Positions 8,566 through 63,415 of a stretch of 64,000 nucleotides of DNA are shown piece after piece (position 1 is the stretch's first letter; the number at the start of each line of letters is the position of its first letter). Below the pieces are notes generated by a model. It was given only the letters and a program-made list of their open reading frames with translations, was not told the DNA's origin and made no database searches. Location of the stretch: NCBI GenBank assembly GCA_020091685.1, contig CM034609.1, positions 19,574,204 to 19,638,203 of the forward strand, given 5' to 3'. Made by a program: the position numbers and the translations under genes. Origin of the DNA: Lutjanus erythropterus (Eukaryota; Chordata; Actinopteri; Lutjaniformes; Lutjanidae).

Positions 8566-10379
8566 CAACATATATGGAAAAATCAATAACCTGATCCAGA
8601 TCATCTCTAAAGAAAAGTGGAGCTTAAGTGTGTATGTGTGTGTCAGACACAGAGCATCAGCCTCGGGGGGAAAGTAATGAAATCCTGACACTGATTGACA
8701 GATGCCTCCAGTGCACTCTGACTAAACTAACATGCAACTGAAATATTTGGCAGCAATTCACAATATATTTCCTTAAAAAAAAAAAAAAAAAAAAAAGAGG
8801 TGTGTTGCTGCTATAAGTAGGAGAATAACAAGTCGAGATAATCCCATGTGAGGCCTGTCCTGAATTCTGTATCATTTTTACTGATGAGCTTCTTGGGCAG
8901 CTGCCATGTCAGCTAGGATGCTCGTAAACAAATAATTATTCATACTAATAATCTTCCATATTCATGTGCAAATAAGATCCCCTTCCTGGTATCTAAGCAG
9001 CTTCAAGGTTGTATGTGGGAGGTTCCCCTAACTATTGCCTGAGTTGACTCATTTCATGCCAAAAGGAGAATATCTAAGGGGTCAAGGATGTATAAGCTAT
9101 ATATAAGAATTCTGTATAAAACAGACTTTTCATGACTTATTTTAAAATGTATGAGCACTGCATTCAAATGCATGTTTTCTCAACCTCACAGGAAATGCAT
9201 TTGACAATTTAAACACATATCCTCTTAGGGTCAAATGGGGATAAAACAAGAGGATTTTTTTTTTCAAATAGGCCTACATATTATAAAGAAACCTCAAATA
9301 AAACCAGAAATGTTGTATCCTAAAAGAATGCTAAAAGTGAGTTCAAGCTTTACAAACATTTTCTTTGTGATGTCACAGGATTTCTCTGAATTGCACATAT
9401 AAATCACCTGCGTAAAGCAGGAATTGGTTTAAACCGCTGTGCGTAATTACGCACAAATCAAATAGGCACATAATTGAATGTTGGCGCAAAAAAAGTTCCA
9501 TCCACTCATGGCCAAATTTCCAAACTCTCTTTAACTGTGCTTTTAGGTGGGACTCGGGCTGTGGGAGCTCCACACATGCCACCATGTCACCTATAACGCC
9601 TCTTGATTAGCTACTTACACTGTATGACATGCGATAGTGCGTTATCATATGTGGCTATAAATAGTCTACAGACAGGCCCGCATCAGAGACCACTGCAATG
9701 AGAGGAGTCACAAACGGCAGAAGGCGGTGGGCATCGGGCGGTGAACTGAGAGGGCTGGACACTGATTTGGACAGGAGGTTGGAAAGACATTCTGGCAACA
9801 TGTTGTTAACTTAAAACAAGGTGCATTACGTTTCCCTAACAGTAACATCATTTTAAATCATGCAATATTCTAACAAGGCAGACTCTCCTAGTTTTAAAAA
9901 AAAAATAACCACCATAATGAGTGGAACTGTGACAGCTAACACACACAGGTAGGTGGAAGGACTTGGCACACTCTTTAGTGACTGTTACCCATTAAAGTAA
10001 ATGGTAACACACACAAGAATTATAAGTGGGTAACTCAGCCCACTAAACTTTACTTTCAACTTCTCTCTGTGTATCATTAAATCTATGAACAACTACAATG
10101 AATCTGACTGCATAAATGAGCAAATTATTGGTTTACATAGCACGTACCATTGTGGTGCAGGGAAATGTGCCAACACTCTCAAAGACCCATTTTCCACTCT
10201 GAAAAGTTCGGCTTCCAAAAAAAAGTGTGTGGGAGAGAAAAGTGCTCGGTTTCTTCTTCTGCTGGGCCTTATACCGGAAGCAAAAGAGCCCTAATACACG
10301 GCCTGCTGCCCGGTAAACATTTTTTTTTCCTAATTTTTAGTCAACTCTTCTTAGTCAAGGCAAAGGAGGACAGTGCCGT
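8566..10379. other. Unique non-coding DNA with a poly(A) tract and a TATA-like site
   Basis: A pure A tract of about 23 bases lies at 8775-8797. GGCTATAAATAGTC near 9652-9665, followed by a GC-richer stretch to about 9790, has the layout of a TATA promoter, but nothing downstream supports a transcript. No coding exon is seen. Confidence 0.45.
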
Positions 10380-11290
10380 ATAATCCAAGTCGTCTGCTCC
10401 CCGACTTCTTCACGCAAGGTGTTTATCGCTTTAAACTCGTGGTATTTCCATGAAAACCGTCCTCTCTCTCTCCAGTCTGTCTGTCCGGTACCGTAATGTC
10501 CACCGAGTGGCCGCGCTCTGCGCCACCGACACAGTCACCGTGTGAGCCCGAGTGGCAGAGCAGGAGTCTGGCTGTGCACCGACAGTAAGTAGCTCGCACT
10601 CTCTGCTTACGCGCTCACCAGATCAGCTGTTGCTCCTGCAGAGGGGACGCCGCCGCGCACTTTCGCTTGTGCATGCTCCTCTCCGGCTTTCCGCTGATGT
10701 AAAAAACGTGGAGGTCCGACTCCTCACCCCTGCTCCTCAGTGACCGGAGAAAGTTGCGGAGTAGAGAGCGGCGTCTGAAACCAAACTCACCATGTGGCAG
10801 CGCGACATCAGGCTTGATGAGACGAGCGGGACTTGGTGGTGGGCAATGCCAGCCGGGACTGCCTACAGGCTGAACACAGTTAACAAGGAGATGAAATGTG
10901 CCTGCGTGAGACACCGAGCCGCCAAAATTAAGTAAACAAACGCTCGAAGTGAAAACACAGCGTGGCTGCACGCACACACGCACCAGTGAGGACGTGTGGA
11001 CGGTGTCCTGTCCTGTCCTGTCCTGCGGCCGCGGCCGGAGAAGCGGAGCGGAGGGCTGGTGAATTATTAATAACCAGAGCGGTTCACAGTCTGTCGTGTT
11101 CAGTGAGTAACCAGGGCGGCAGCTGGGGGTTTAGAGGAATTAAATACGGGCTCAGAGTAAACCATGGACGCAGGGGATTAGTAGCTCTCACCGGCAAAAG
11201 TGTAGGGGCAGCTCGGGGCCGACAGAGAGGGCGGGAGGGAGCGGAGCGGAGGTTAGGGAGCGGTGGGGGAAGCAGCCGCCGCGGCAGGTT
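10380..11290. promoter_or_regulatory. CpG island, probable bidirectional promoter of the NFI gene
   Basis: This is the only long CpG-dense, GC-rich stretch in the left 55 kb. It includes a not-quite-pure (TCCTG)n run at about 11004-11026 followed by GCGGCCGCGGCCGG. It contains a strong 5' splice-site motif on each strand. On + there is GACA then GTAAGT (10585-10590); on - there is CCACATG then GTGAGT (10790-10785). That layout suggests a CpG-island promoter with short first exons in both directions. The - strand direction fits the NFI gene whose alternative exon is at 31358-31435. There is no transcript evidence. Confidence 0.55.
10791..10808 (-). CDS. Candidate short coding first exon of the NFI gene (MSRCHM)
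   Basis: On the - strand an ATG at 10808 opens six codons (MSRCHM), ending exactly at a good donor (ATG then GTGAGT) in phase 0. NFI genes join very short alternative first exons in phase 0 to the exon that begins DEFHPF. The reading frame, donor and CpG-island position all fit that pattern. The first in-frame stop upstream is near 10863, and no earlier in-frame ATG lies between. The six residues do not match an NFI N-terminus I remember (MYSP.CLTQ or MLPACRLQ types). The exon may be mostly 5' UTR, or the match may be chance. The DEFHPF exon is not in the window. Confidence 0.3.
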
Positions 11291-13489
11291 ATCATAAACC
11301 CAAATATTTTTCTCAACGTGCGAAATACACGCTGTAAACGTCGATCTGCCAAGTTTACATTTAGCCTAAATCTGTTAAAAGGTTGGTAAAAATGTGACAT
11401 CCAAACGCTGAACAACAAAAACATTTTTTTAAATGGTATTTTATTTTTAAAGAGGTTATACTGAGCTTAGGTGTGTTAAAGTTGTGCAACCAAGGGTTGA
11501 TTTAATTAACCCTCGTGGTAACTTATTCTACTTAACAGATATATAGAATATTATGTCATGGCTGTGAGGGGAATAATATAAATTTCAGGAGTTAATGTGT
11601 TCAACTTTATTTTAGACATGTGTAACACCTTTGTATTAGCCATATTTTTCCACATTTTACTCACGCACACCACTTCCAAACTGATCTGCAGGCCTTAGAG
11701 CTCACAATCAGTCAAGCTATTAACTGTTTTCTTCTGTTCAGGTGACCATCTGTTTATTTTGTCATGCGTTTAGGCAGGTACGTTGCAAAGAGCAGGTGCA
11801 TGACTCCTGGAAACAATATTTATTCATCGCAAATATCATATTATCGTGGATATTGAGACGCTATTTCAGCAGACACACCTTCAAGAAGAGACTTTGGTCA
11901 TGAATAAATTAGGAAAGTAGGGTTTTGACCTTTTATGGGAAACGAAGCATCACGGAAGTGCGCAACTGCAGACGTCACGCAATAAAAAGATGAGCACTGT
12001 CAAAATGGATCCCACCTGCCACCAATTTAGTCTGTATTGGTTCAACTTTATCACTCTACAAACAGACAAATAAAAGGCTTATGGACTCAGAGTTGGTCCT
12101 TACAGAGAGAGAGACATGATGGGATATTTCAGAGAGACAAGCAGCTTGAATCTCTAAATGTTTTAAATAACTGGAGCCTCAGATTTCTCCACCAAGAAGA
12201 CAAAATAAAGCTTAAAGAAAATCACACGTACATTTAAAATAAAATACATCAGATTCAGATTGCAATATTAAAGATCTACTGATTGAAAACAGGAATATTT
12301 CAAGTTGTAATGGCCTAATAATTTTAACAGAAAGACATACAGATACATTTTCCAGGTTTTCCATTTAGCATTTCTTAATTCAGTATATGTCCTGAATTTT
12401 TAACAGGCAAGTAACTTTATTTTGTGAGTCTGTTGTCAATCAAGTCGTAATGAAATATATCAGAGTTGTCACAGTCTTTTAATTTAACAAATCAGGTTCC
12501 ATTTTATATTTCCTCGTCGTTTCTTTATATTAATTTAAAAGAAACAAAAAATATGCGACTATTCATTTTTTTAAAAAACAGTTTACAGAGCACAATAAAA
12601 CACAAAAACAATTACAGGTCAAATAATTAGTCTAGGCCTCAAATGTTTAATTTGTATCTTAAAATACATTAATTTAAATGATAAAAAACATTGTGGGGAT
12701 AAACGTATTGATGCATATTTTTGGGGACTTTAAAAAGATCTGAAACGAATGTAAAAAGGCTATAAAAGCAGCAGGAAGAAGAAACTGCTAAAATGTTCAA
12801 TTTATTTGATTTTATTATAATTTTTAGTTACAGCAAATATATTTAAGGCTCAAATTCTATCAGATTTCAGTAAGTGCTCAACTAAAGCGTTTTAAAACAC
12901 GTCTGATTATATGAAATTTTAATGTGTGTAAGTGTGTGTGTGGCCTTTTCAAGCGAGCGGCCTGCAGGAGAGCCACTGAAAGTCTGCACCATAAATTGTC
13001 TTTGGGCCTGTATGAGCACAATTCCTTGTTAAACTGCGTTTTATTCATTTTATTTTAATTGTGAGCGTGTTTGCACCATGAACATCAGATTCTTTTTATT
13101 AATATGTAGCTTATTCAACCTGCACAATGGTATAGTAACTGCCGTGCGATTTGGATCTCAACACGAGGGCTGGTTAGGTTGTGTATAGCAAGAAAAAACA
13201 TTGTAATGCGCAATAAAACTTGTGTAACATATTCACACGTACTATGAATTTAATACCAGTTGGTCTCAGACAGTTGGTTCATTTTAGTTTTGATTTGACC
13301 TGATATTTGACCTTTTAACTGCATTTATTGGAGTCTCAACTTACTTGGAAAATACGGCCTGTTTGGGACCTAAATGCATCATTGTAAAAGGGTTCATCTA
13401 CTTAGATATTTAAATGCTCGAAATTTTGATTTCCCTTTATTTTATTGAAAACGTGTGAAAAACTTGGATTTATTTTAAAGCTACCACAA
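11291..13489. other. Unique AT-rich non-coding DNA
   Basis: No gene or recognisable transposon. The piece at about 12940-13150, containing GCGAGCGGCCTGCAGGAGAG and a long AT-rich block, is more complex than its surroundings and is a candidate conserved element. Confidence 0.4.
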
Positions 13490-30916: not shown

Positions 30917-31357
30917 GCTTGAAGGAATATGACAGACAGACAAATATTTTGTAATATATATCGCCATCATCATTTCATTCAGATTTAGACCAACTGACAA
31001 GGCATGTGGACAATATGATCTCAACAAGGAGGCTTAACTACCTCTTCTAATAAAAGCAGACAGCTGACTGTTGGCCTTCCCTTGGCCTCAAGCACCAAAC
31101 ACCTTGTACACACACTTAGCAAGTGACTGAAAGCAGTCATTTCAGATGCACAGTGTGGAAAACATGCAGCGTGCACAACATGTCAACATTATGTCACATT
31201 CTGCAGCAGAGGGATATTTCACCCAAAACAAGATGGGGGTGTAAAGTGAGTGCAAACGAGAGCAGGAGAATGTAACAAAAACAGAACAGAGACAGACGGA
31301 CGGACGGACGGATCGATTGATACAGAATGAGGGAGCGACAGGGAGCATCCATCCTAC
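30917..31357. other. Unique DNA just downstream (on the - strand) of the NFI exon
   Basis: Probable NFI intron sequence containing the donor (GTAGGA read on the - strand at 31357-31352) and a (GGAC)n run at 31297-31312. Confidence 0.45.
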
Positions 31358-31435
31358 CATCCACCATGACCTGGCAGAGAAGTCATAACACAGCTGCCAC
31401 CTGAGCCCGGGGTCACTCTGCCTCTCCCACGCCAT
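31358..31435 (-). CDS. nfix: Nuclear Factor I alternative first coding exon (probably nfix)
   Basis: Read on the - strand from ATG at 31435, the exon encodes 26 residues beginning MAWERQSDPG and continuing LRWQLCYDFSARSWWM. It ends in phase 0 at a donor (ATG then GTAGGA). NFIA has an alternative N-terminus that reads KWQLCYDISARTWWM directly before the shared DEFHPF DNA-binding exon, so this is the orthologous kind of exon. NFI proteins are nuclear CTF/NFI transcription factors that bind TTGGC(N5)GCCAA as dimers. The residues alone do not decide between NFI paralogues; I choose nfix because human NFIX lies next to GADD45GIP1 in the same divergent arrangement. The rest of the gene would lie left of the window. 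The donor is weaker than consensus, and an upstream exon joining near 31490 is possible. Confidence 0.72.
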
Positions 31436-31490
31436 TCCACACACTGCCACGCCGCCTCTCCCACGCCAGAATCCTCTTCCTGGGACTGCT

Positions 31491-31512
31491 GATAAATATA
31501 TAAATATATAAA
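31491..31512 (-). promoter_or_regulatory. TATA-like AT run upstream of the NFI exon
   Basis: On the - strand TTATATATTTATATATTTATC lies about 55-75 bases upstream of the ATG at 31435. It could be a TATA element for a distal promoter. Because it ends in ATCAGCAG it could instead be part of a 3' splice site. The sequence does not decide between them. Confidence 0.3.
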
Positions 31513-31643
31513 ACAACAGTCAATGAGGGGAGAAACACGGATGGAGTCACCAATCAGGAGCTATCTGTTACCAGGATGCTGCTCCGGTGTGAGTGATGGA
31601 GAGGGTGTGTGTATGTGTGGGTATATACTGTATGTATGCTCTG

Positions 31644-56820: not shown

Positions 56821-57003
56821 CTGTCAAACAGGAATCACTTTAACATGTAATTCTTCAGTGCCAAAAGTATTCGAGAGAACAAGAAACACTAGAGCCCCCA
56901 TAAAACAAAAAAAAAAAAAAGAAGAGGAGGAAAAGATGAGCTCATGAAAGACCTGTCTGTGATGATCAGGCACTGCCGTGGTCACCTCTGGGTCCTTCTT
57001 GAG

Positions 57004-57026
57004 GAACAAGAAAGATGGCGGCGTCC
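57004..57026 (+). promoter_or_regulatory. TISU/YY1-like translation initiator at the gadd45gip1 start
   Basis: The start context is GAAAGATGGCGGCG. It matches the TISU consensus SAASATGGCGGC at every position except the first (A instead of S), and it includes a YY1-type AAGATGGCGGC. TISU elements are typical of mitochondrial protein genes with very short 5' UTRs. This supports ATG 57015 as the start and suggests transcription begins within a few tens of bases of it. A poly(A) run at 56910-56922 lies just upstream. Confidence 0.5.
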
Positions 57027-59078
57027 ATGCTGTGCAGGAGGACGGCAGCGCTATGTAGGACGTTACAGGGGATTTCAGCTTCAAAAACTGTACTTTCTGC
57101 GAACTGTCAGAGCGGGCTGCTATTGCAAACGGCATCTTATAACCCCAGACCTTTAAAGCTGAACCTCCGAGAGCCGTATGTGCCAGACAAGGACAGCGAG
57201 AAGACGCCGGAGTGGCAGAAGACGGCCCGGTATGACAGGAAGGTGTACGGTCGGTACGGCTCAGCGTCGGGCATCGACCCTGCGACTCTGTGGCCCAGCC
57301 ATGAGGAGCTGGACAAGATCATCGCGGAGGAAAATGAGTGGCACCCTCCGTTAGAGGTGCTGCTGAAGAACATCGAGGCCAAGGAGAAGGAGGAAACAGA
57401 AAAACGGCTGGCTAAGTAAGTAATGCTACTGTGGCTAACGCTAACGCGTCTATTATCGGACAGGTAGGACAGACTGCATGTTGCTCTGTTTACTGTCATT
57501 TCAGTTCTGCGCTAGCAGGAATATTACATGCAAGACACATTACCTAACTCGTGTATTACTTTTATGTAATGATGAATATGGGGGAAGCATTAACTGGAGT
57601 AAGAGAACACAGGAGAACATACCCAGCAGCAAATACAGGTACAAAATTCATTTACAACATTGAACTCATTAAGAACACCTGTTGTCAGGTGCATAAACTC
57701 AAAGCAAATTTCCACTGAATAATCATAAAGTCCAAGGCACCCACAACTAAAGTGATGATTCAAATGAATGCTATTTTAAGAAGGTTAAAGAAACAATTCA
57801 AGTCGAACCTGGAGCAGCAGAGGCAGAGATATCCTAAATGTTCAAAATACTGAATCCTGCATTTCCATAATTACGTCTGGTTAGTGGATAGTATCGTGAG
57901 TATGATTGATTGTCTGTCAGTATGGGTGCATTAGTATATGTATGTGGGGCTGCATCTATCTATATTTTATCTGTTAGGGTTGCACGATATGGTAGGAAAA
58001 AACACAATATTGACAGACAATTTAATTTTTTACTGGAAAAACATAATACAACTTTGTAAGTATTGGTATTTGTTGTTGTGGTCTGTACCAAACAGACATG
58101 TTTTCTTACATCTGGAGAACACGGTTTGAAGGTCAGGGCATCTCTGAAGCACTACAGCACTTCATTATAATGCCGTTGTGTCAGACACTTTTTCTTTATC
58201 AGAAAATAACAGCTTCTGCGATTTGGATGTTGCACTTAGCCATACTCCAATTTTGATAATACTTAGTTTACTCGTGCAGCCTGATTATCGATCAATCTGA
58301 TTAATGGTTTAGTCTGGAAAATGTCAGAAAATGGTGTATTCAAATGCCTTGTGTGCAGTCCAAGGCCCAGTTGGGGTGGGTTGTGACTTCAGGTGCAAAT
58401 TAGGTGTCGACCTAATCCTGTTACATTTACACTGGTGTTGATGTCAGTGCTGATTAAAGTACACTGTTAAATAAATAAACAGTGTGTGTATAGAGGCATT
58501 TGTATATGTGTGCCATATTTTATTTTTGATAATGTTTTTATTGTAATTTTAATATAGACAAAGGCATATGGAGTGTGAGACTTGTCTCGAGCTACGAGAT
58601 CCATACACACACAAACAAAAAGATGAGACGGAAGAGCAAAGTTTTTTACAGTTGATCCTGTGAGGAATATGAACTGTACCACTTGTCAGGACAATCAGTA
58701 TTTGCCATAGTAAAAGAGATAATGTGAACCAAACAACCATTGTTGCACAACATTAACATCTCTTACAATCTTTTCCATTGCAGAGAGAAGCTCATTGCGG
58801 CAAACATGGCCAAAATGCCCAAGATGATAGCTGACTGGCGCAGAGAAAAGCATGAAGCCAAACGCAAGGTAAAGGAGGAGAAAGCCCGACGTGCAAAGTT
58901 GCTGGCAGAGGCCAGAGAGCGTTTTGGCTACGCAGTGGACCCCCGTTCACCAAAGTTCTTGGAAATGGTTGCTGAAATAGAAAAGGAAGAGAAGAAGAAG
59001 AAGAAACTAATGAAACGCAGACTGAAAGAGGAGCAGGTGACGGCTCCTGTCACACCTCCCAGTGCTGCCTCCTCATAG
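57015..59078 (+). CDS. gadd45gip1: gadd45gip1 (mitoribosomal protein mL64, CRIF1), two coding exons
   Basis: Coding exons are 57015-57415 and 58784-59078 (696 nt, 231 residues). The donor is GCTAA then GTAAGT, the acceptor is CCATTGCAG, and the junction is phase 2. The product is CR6-interacting factor 1, a large-subunit protein of the mitochondrial ribosome needed for synthesis and membrane insertion of mtDNA-encoded proteins; a nuclear cofactor role is also described for the mammalian protein. Residues 1-25 (MAASMLCRRTAALCRTLQG) are a basic, acid-free mitochondrial presequence. The family core follows (LREPYVPD; GRYGSASGIDPATLWPS; ANMAKMPKMIADWR; FGYAVDPRSPKF). The C-terminus is a long Lys/Glu-rich helix. 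The length is close to human (about 222). It is convergent with the TTC39 gene and divergent from the NFI gene. No frameshift is seen, and the gene looks functional. Confidence 0.96.
57416..58783 (+). other. gadd45gip1 intron 1
   Basis: A 1368 bp GT-AG intron. It contains a fragment of the cyclic-name MITE seen at 8266 (GGGTTGCACGATATGG near 57977) and a piece of the GCTGCAACTAA family (58280-58335). Otherwise unrecognised AT-rich DNA. Confidence 0.8.
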
Positions 59079-60800: not shown

Positions 60801-63217
<2,417 letters not shown>

Positions 63218-63415
63218 CTAAAGACACGGGAAATTAAAAAAAAAAGGAAAAAAAAGCCAAATTAGGGGAGAAGACATAGGGTCTGAAGTAGTGAGGCAGT
63301 GCCTAACACTTCTGATGTACTTGTTTTTAAACCTGCCTTTATTATTTTTTGATGAGACAGAGTTACAAGGTGCAAACACGAAAGAGATATTGTACAAAGT
63401 TACAAGTTAGTGTTA
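63218..63415 (-). other. Intron of the TTC39 gene
   Basis: Begins (going upstream) from the TTTAG acceptor at 63218-63222. Contains an A-rich run. No further exon is visible before the repeat. Confidence 0.6.

Follow-up and report, generated by a model that had tools for sequence, protein, structure and literature searches.

The window analysed here is a stretch of 64,000 nucleotides of the Lutjanus erythropterus genome (C19:19574204-19638203, where C19 is contig CM034609.1, in an assembly of 937.6 Mb and 444 contigs). Neighbouring pieces were joined to it, giving a stretch of 196,204 bases that was read leftward from the short minus-strand exon with which this analysis is concerned. Besides that exon and its splice donor, the window contains a CpG island and two exons of GADD45GIP1, a divergent neighbour that bounds the 5' region of the gene to which the exon is assigned below (Table 1).

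Table 1. Features of the locus and of the corresponding exons elsewhere in the genome. Locations without a contig label are positions in the window; a slash marks an exon border.
Feature	Location	Strand	Remarks
Coding part, nfix alternative first exon (very probably exon 1a type)	31358..31435	-	MAWERQSDPGLRWQLCYDFSARSWWM, phase 0 end; C19:19605561-19605638 by genome search with the 26-mer
5' splice donor GTAGGA	31352..31357	-	directly after terminal ATG codon, phase 0
TATA-like stretch TATATATTTATATATTTAT, possible core promoter	31492..31510	-	57-75 bases before ATG, read by eye
AGs, possible 3' splice acceptors instead of a promoter	31490-31489, 31487-31486	-	
CpG island	10337..11416	.	1080 bp, GC 0.55, CpG o/e 0.91; longest in 196 kb
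Candidate third first exon ATGTCGCGCTGCCACATG (MSRCHM), in CpG island	10791..10808	-	directly before GTGAGT, phase 0
GADD45GIP1 exon	57003..57419	+	PF10147, E=3e-14
GADD45GIP1 second exon	58728..59078	+	PF10147, E=2e-25
Standard first exon MYSPYCLTQ/GTAAAT	C19:19565355-19565381	-	between the 26-codon exon and the DEFHPF exon
DEFHPF DNA-binding exon (start)	C19:19529137	-	acceptor ...CTCAG/GATGAATTT, phase 0
nfia match	C7:41278427-41278489	+	26-mer genome search; peptide MKLADSVMAGKTSEGSIKWQLCYDISARTWWM/gtaagt
nfib match	C23:21637139-21637198	+	26-mer genome search; peptide MRAGSAGMAGKLTERSIKWQLCYDMSARTWWM/gtaagt
nfic match	C7:3281583-3281645	-	26-mer genome search; peptide MAMSATPGGCSEADSSVKWQLCYDVSAKTWWM/gtgagt

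The original prediction had placed a 26-codon minus-strand exon here, ending in phase 0 at a donor, and this is borne out by the sequence, in which the 26 codons are read without a stop and run directly into GTAGGA. The start codon, an ATG at 31435, has G at -3 and at +4, and the reading frame is open from the exon back to 31519. The TATA-like run and the possible acceptors fall together at 31510-31486, and the CpG o/e in the exon's own 500 bp is 0.44. With a crude weight matrix, the donor scores 6.65 bits, a value reached by 2.2% of the minus-strand GTs in the 196 kb. When the window was compared in six frames with the NFIA peptide given in the original prediction, a 15-residue stretch of the exon scored 85 (BLOSUM62) and was the best of 127,912 windows; the next-best scored 26, the mean being -19 with a standard deviation of 8. 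NCBIfam, a library for prokaryotes, returned nothing for the 26-mer, and Rfam nothing for the window at the gathering threshold. Four designed beta-trefoils in the PDB matched the 26-mer (whole-sequence E 2.3e-7, 2.2e-6, 0.025 and 0.068) and were taken as chance, these E-values being sums over three internal repeats whose single stretches (the SDPGLRWQL piece) have an i-Evalue of at least 12.

Downstream of the exon, on the same strand, a search leftward over some hundreds of kb for a DEFHPF exon found one 76,423 bp (76.4 kb) away, with an acceptor phase that matches that of the donor. The best PDB match of this DNA-binding exon, of 177 residues, was NFIX 9qky (381.7 bits, E=3.3e-114), followed by NFIA 9xvq (378); against chains of 163-167 aa the scores were 357 bits for NFIX, 353 for NFIA, 338 for NFIC and 333 for NFIB, so that NFIX leads NFIA by little. 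Further on, at C19:19442550-19416426, the NFI C-terminal family was matched. We assign the host gene to nfix because its DNA-binding exon is nearest to NFIX, because it has the MYSPYCLTQ exon, whose peptide we take to be a mark of NFIX, and because its neighbour is GADD45GIP1, near which human NFIX presumably lies. The gene nfia was ruled out as host, since the DNA-binding exon is nearest to NFIX and nfia has an exon of its own elsewhere, on C7, which contains exactly KWQLCYDISARTWWM. Thus, the earlier claim of an alternative NFI start joining a DEFHPF exon is supported, but the gene named in it, NFIA, has to be replaced by nfix on the evidence of the DNA-binding and MYSPYCLTQ exons.

A genome-wide search with the 26-mer returned four matches at E<=10 among the five best candidates scored, namely the exon itself (9.8e-13) and three others with E-values from 1.6e-4 to 5.3e-4. 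All four lie on the coding strand upstream of an NFI DNA-binding exon and end in WWM/GT, at distances to the DEFHPF exon of about 76.4 kb in nfix, 93.7 kb in nfia (counted to the 41.37M copy of its DNA-binding exon), 11.5 kb in nfib and 58.3 kb in nfic. The same four places were returned by a reciprocal genome search that took 25 residues of the nfia peptide as its query, and on these sequence comparisons a chance origin of the matches is excluded. The encoded peptide has 26 residues in nfix and 32 in each of nfia, nfib and nfic, and the last 15 residues form a core, [KR]WQLCYDxSA[RK][TS]WWM, that is common to the four genes (RWQLCYDFSARSWWM in nfix). The nfix core is identical to that of nfia at 12 of 15 positions, with F in place of I/V/M and S in place of T, and its changes with respect to nfia are not mostly synonymous. 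Over the 15 codons of the core, dN and dS were 0.11 and 1.14 for nfix-nfib, 0.11 and 0.59 for nfix-nfic, and 0.03 and 1.21 for nfia-nfib; dN was thus below dS in three of the six pairs, all of those where dS could be computed, and in the other three, nfix-nfia included, dS was undefined, as happens at saturation. The nfix donor (ATG/GTAGGA) is weaker than those of nfia (ATG/GTAAGT), nfib (GTAAGT) and nfic (GTGAGT), and is alone among the four in departing from GTRAGT. Since nfix combines this weaker donor with the two replacements by F and S in its core, its constraint may be relaxed. At the level of DNA, likeness at the exon is limited to the 3' end and a few bases beyond, and before the ATG the frame is open for 5 codons in the nfia exon and 14 in the nfib exon.

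Two further stretches of DNA likeness were observed around these exons. The nfix and nfic loci share a 51-base match (80%, E=3e-5) in their introns, about 700 bases past the exon, which could be a repeat. In addition, nfia and nfib have in common a 23-base stretch (95.7%) that precedes the ATG of the exon by about 100-125 bases; it is a possible promoter element, and no match to it was reported in the nfix or nfic loci.

The domain model of the DEFHPF exon matched the genome at six places (C19, C3, C7:3.22M, C23, and C7 at 41.37M and 41.58M), and, with the two C7:41M copies counted as one, the alternative exon is present in four of five NFI genes, the C3 gene being the one without a match. By its best solved relative the C7:41 gene is NFIA (the 41.58M copy was the one compared). 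The C23 gene is NFIB, which scored 364.9 bits where an equally long NFIA chain reached 344.6, although a longer NFIA chain came first, at 367.1. The gene at C7:3.2M is NFIC, though its lead over NFIA is small (110.7 and 108.6, over 58 residues). For the C3 DNA-binding exon, NFIA comes first (389.0) and NFIX next (381.2). We nevertheless take C3 as a second nfix, because its C-terminal exon carries a motif that we assume to be NFIX-like and its upstream DNA matches the CpG island of the C19 nfix; two protein searches, with the 26-mer and with the nfia peptide, found no match to the exon in this gene.

As a separate observation, the nfia DNA-binding exon and its flanks occur in two near-identical copies (C7:41370747-41373812 and C7:41574272-41577385; 97.3% over 3.09 kb, with 62 gap letters in 48 openings). 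The former carries several frameshifts and the latter lies downstream of the later exons of the gene, and the doubling is probably a false duplication or a poorly polished stretch of the assembly. Likewise, in nfic (C7:3221649-3224765) the likeness of the DNA-binding exon to other NFI genes stops after ...LLGEKAEV, and three motifs from the later part of that exon were not found in this locus; perhaps an intron lies inside the exon, or the assembly is at fault.

An exon of this arrangement is known from the brain-specific form of mouse NFI-A, of which the work of das Neves et al. (1999) is reportedly the original report. According to a later article (PMC2805660), this isoform has a unique N-terminus of 32 residues encoded by exon 1a, and the standard form one of 9, from exon 1b. 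The same article describes that both forms bound their site in vitro, the standard one at least as strongly, and that in neuroblastoma cells chromatin immunoprecipitation at the L1 gene gave a signal for the brain-specific form; standard NFI-A yielded no signal in three experiments, one of them the experiment shown, and weak binding in another, a difference that the authors consider explicable by assay conditions or phosphorylation (PMC2805660). L1 reporter activity was cut to under a third by the brain-specific form (PMC2805660). Given this published exon 1a, calling the exon hidden, as the original prediction did, was too strong as a claim of novelty. As regards NFIX itself, NFIX mutations cause the Malan and Marshall-Smith syndromes and different transcription initiation sites are mentioned for mouse Nfix (PMC10241085), the splicing of Nfix exons 7 and 9 has been treated (PMC5852603), several Nfia transcripts are mentioned (PMC7546476) and NM_001145512 was used as an NFIA transcript (PMC9615232); the available portions of these four articles do not describe the 26-codon exon, and PMC7055320 and PMC8329181 proved irrelevant to it. 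In a literature search, mainly of openly available titles, we recognised no report of the exon in NFIX.

The mouse isoform and the nfix exon present the same arrangement, an alternative N-terminal exon set on a shared DNA-binding region, and the nfia exon of this genome has the 32 residues stated for mouse, with a WQLCYDxSARxWWM core that recurs in nfix. They differ in that the nfix exon encodes 26 residues, of which the first 11 are unrelated, has F and S in the core and has the weaker donor. The length of 32 was treated as non-defining for NFIX, since it is known for mouse NFI-A alone. Mouse exon 1a appears to be of the type described here, judging from length, arrangement and the presumed NFIA peptide, and orthology to the human or mouse exons likewise appears to hold, going by that peptide and the 32-residue match. 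The standard MYSPYCLTQ start, too, is a short first exon with a phase 0 end, placed before the same DEFHPF exon, but it has 9 residues, lies 40 kb nearer to the DNA-binding exon and is without the WQLCYD core. Transcription-factor genes at large also have alternative first exons, which provide several promoters and variant N-termini for one DNA-binding domain; the NFI exon differs in that it recurs in each of the four paralogous groups.

Taken together, we consider with high confidence that an alternative first exon of the ancestral NFI gene, of the exon 1a type, is represented in nfix by this exon. The earlier interpretation as an alternative NFI first exon is largely supported by the sequence once the gene is read as nfix, and we regard the exon as conserved and as a member of a type already described. 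The sequence shows its frame, donor, position and strand, the acceptor and the paralog exons; its transcription, splicing, tissue and effect are inferred. A distal promoter, some 76 kb upstream of the DNA-binding exon, would produce a transcript with a short first exon encoding a 26-residue tail, and a phase 0 splice (WWM/DEFHPF) would set this tail onto the shared DNA-binding exon in place of the 9-residue MYSPYCLTQ start. The product would be an NFIX with the same DNA-binding domain and a different N-terminus. By analogy with brain-specific mouse NFI-A, the nervous system is probably where this variant is used, and what it changes is probably the occupancy of sites in chromatin, not DNA binding itself.

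The presence of the exon in all four paralogous groups is most simply explained if it predates their split, so that on sequence grounds it is probably older than the vertebrate genome duplications. A broader proposal, to which we give about even credence, is that the WQLCYDxSARxWWM tail is an ancient module of the single NFI gene that existed before the duplications, which nfia, nfib and nfic have retained along with one nfix copy, and which was lost or drifted in the other nfix. It would define a common, promoter-selected neural form of all four factors that changes chromatin occupancy with the DNA-binding domain unchanged.

The same features of nfix that suggest relaxed constraint would also suit a decaying relic, functional in an ancestor but rarely or never used in this nfix, whose start would have moved to the CpG-island and MYSPYCLTQ promoters. 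Its donor is weaker and its substitutions more numerous than in nfia, nfib and nfic, the two protein searches found no match near the second nfix copy, and CpG is low at the exon. We regard this as unlikely, since the 26-codon frame is intact behind a start codon with G at both -3 and +4, the core keeps 12 of 15 residues of nfia, and in the comparisons with nfib and nfic dN stays below dS (over 15 codons only, with dS undefined against nfia). That the 26 codons are simply a chance open frame unrelated to NFI could be argued from their small number and from the lack of matches in Pfam (for the 125-aa frame) and in the prokaryotic library NCBIfam (for the 26-mer). This reading was rejected and is extremely improbable, considering that the second-best window scored 26 against 85 and that every one of the four genome matches precedes an NFI gene on the appropriate strand.

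Another reading turns on where the exon begins. It would be an internal exon, joined through an acceptor close to 31489 or 31486 to an exon upstream, and the transcript, and perhaps the protein as well, would start further right. The frame open back to 31519, the T-rich run ending in TTTATCAGCAG at 31496-31486 and the open frames before the ATG of the nfia and nfib exons are all in line with it. However, the ATG at 31435 lies in a good context, the upstream open frame shows no likeness to the paralog peptides by eye, and at the DNA level likeness stops a few bases beyond the exon's 3' end, the other match being the 51 bases shared with nfic in the intron. Furthermore, exon 1a of mouse NFI-A encodes the protein N-terminus (PMC2805660). 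We therefore find an internal exon improbable, and prefer the alternative first exon.

NFI factors act in development. If the alternative start holds for all four genes, the isoform-specific roles of brain-specific NFI-A may extend to the whole family, and constructs with only the standard 9-residue start would miss such roles. With this exon, the 5' end of nfix also moves 40 kb upstream of the standard first exon, and the apparent gene desert is therefore largely nfix's own intron and promoter DNA. In the original prediction a desert of 57 kb had been explained by NFI intron and 5' regulatory DNA making up most of the left half of the window; about 31 kb at the left are indeed nfix intron, between the 26-codon exon and the standard start, and the remaining 25.6 kb are the gap between nfix and GADD45GIP1.

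Within the desert, Pfam returned nothing for the frames 10615-11130 and 31142-31519, the latter being the 125-aa frame around the exon. The CpG island lies 20 kb from the 26-codon exon, between it and the MYSPYCLTQ exon, and two short islands elsewhere in the 196 kb reach an o/e of 0.91-0.92. A part of it, 124 bases at 11058-11181, matches C3:25239420-25239545 (-) with 71% identity, at a place that precedes the DNA-binding exon of the second nfix by about 46 kb, and by its sequence the island is probably another nfix promoter. The candidate MSRCHM exon inside it has a donor of 9.89 bits; it lies outside the stretch matched in C3 and is without homology support. To the right of GADD45GIP1, an exon of a TTC39-type tetratricopeptide gene was observed at 62683-63261 on the minus strand (PF10300, E=8.6e-24).
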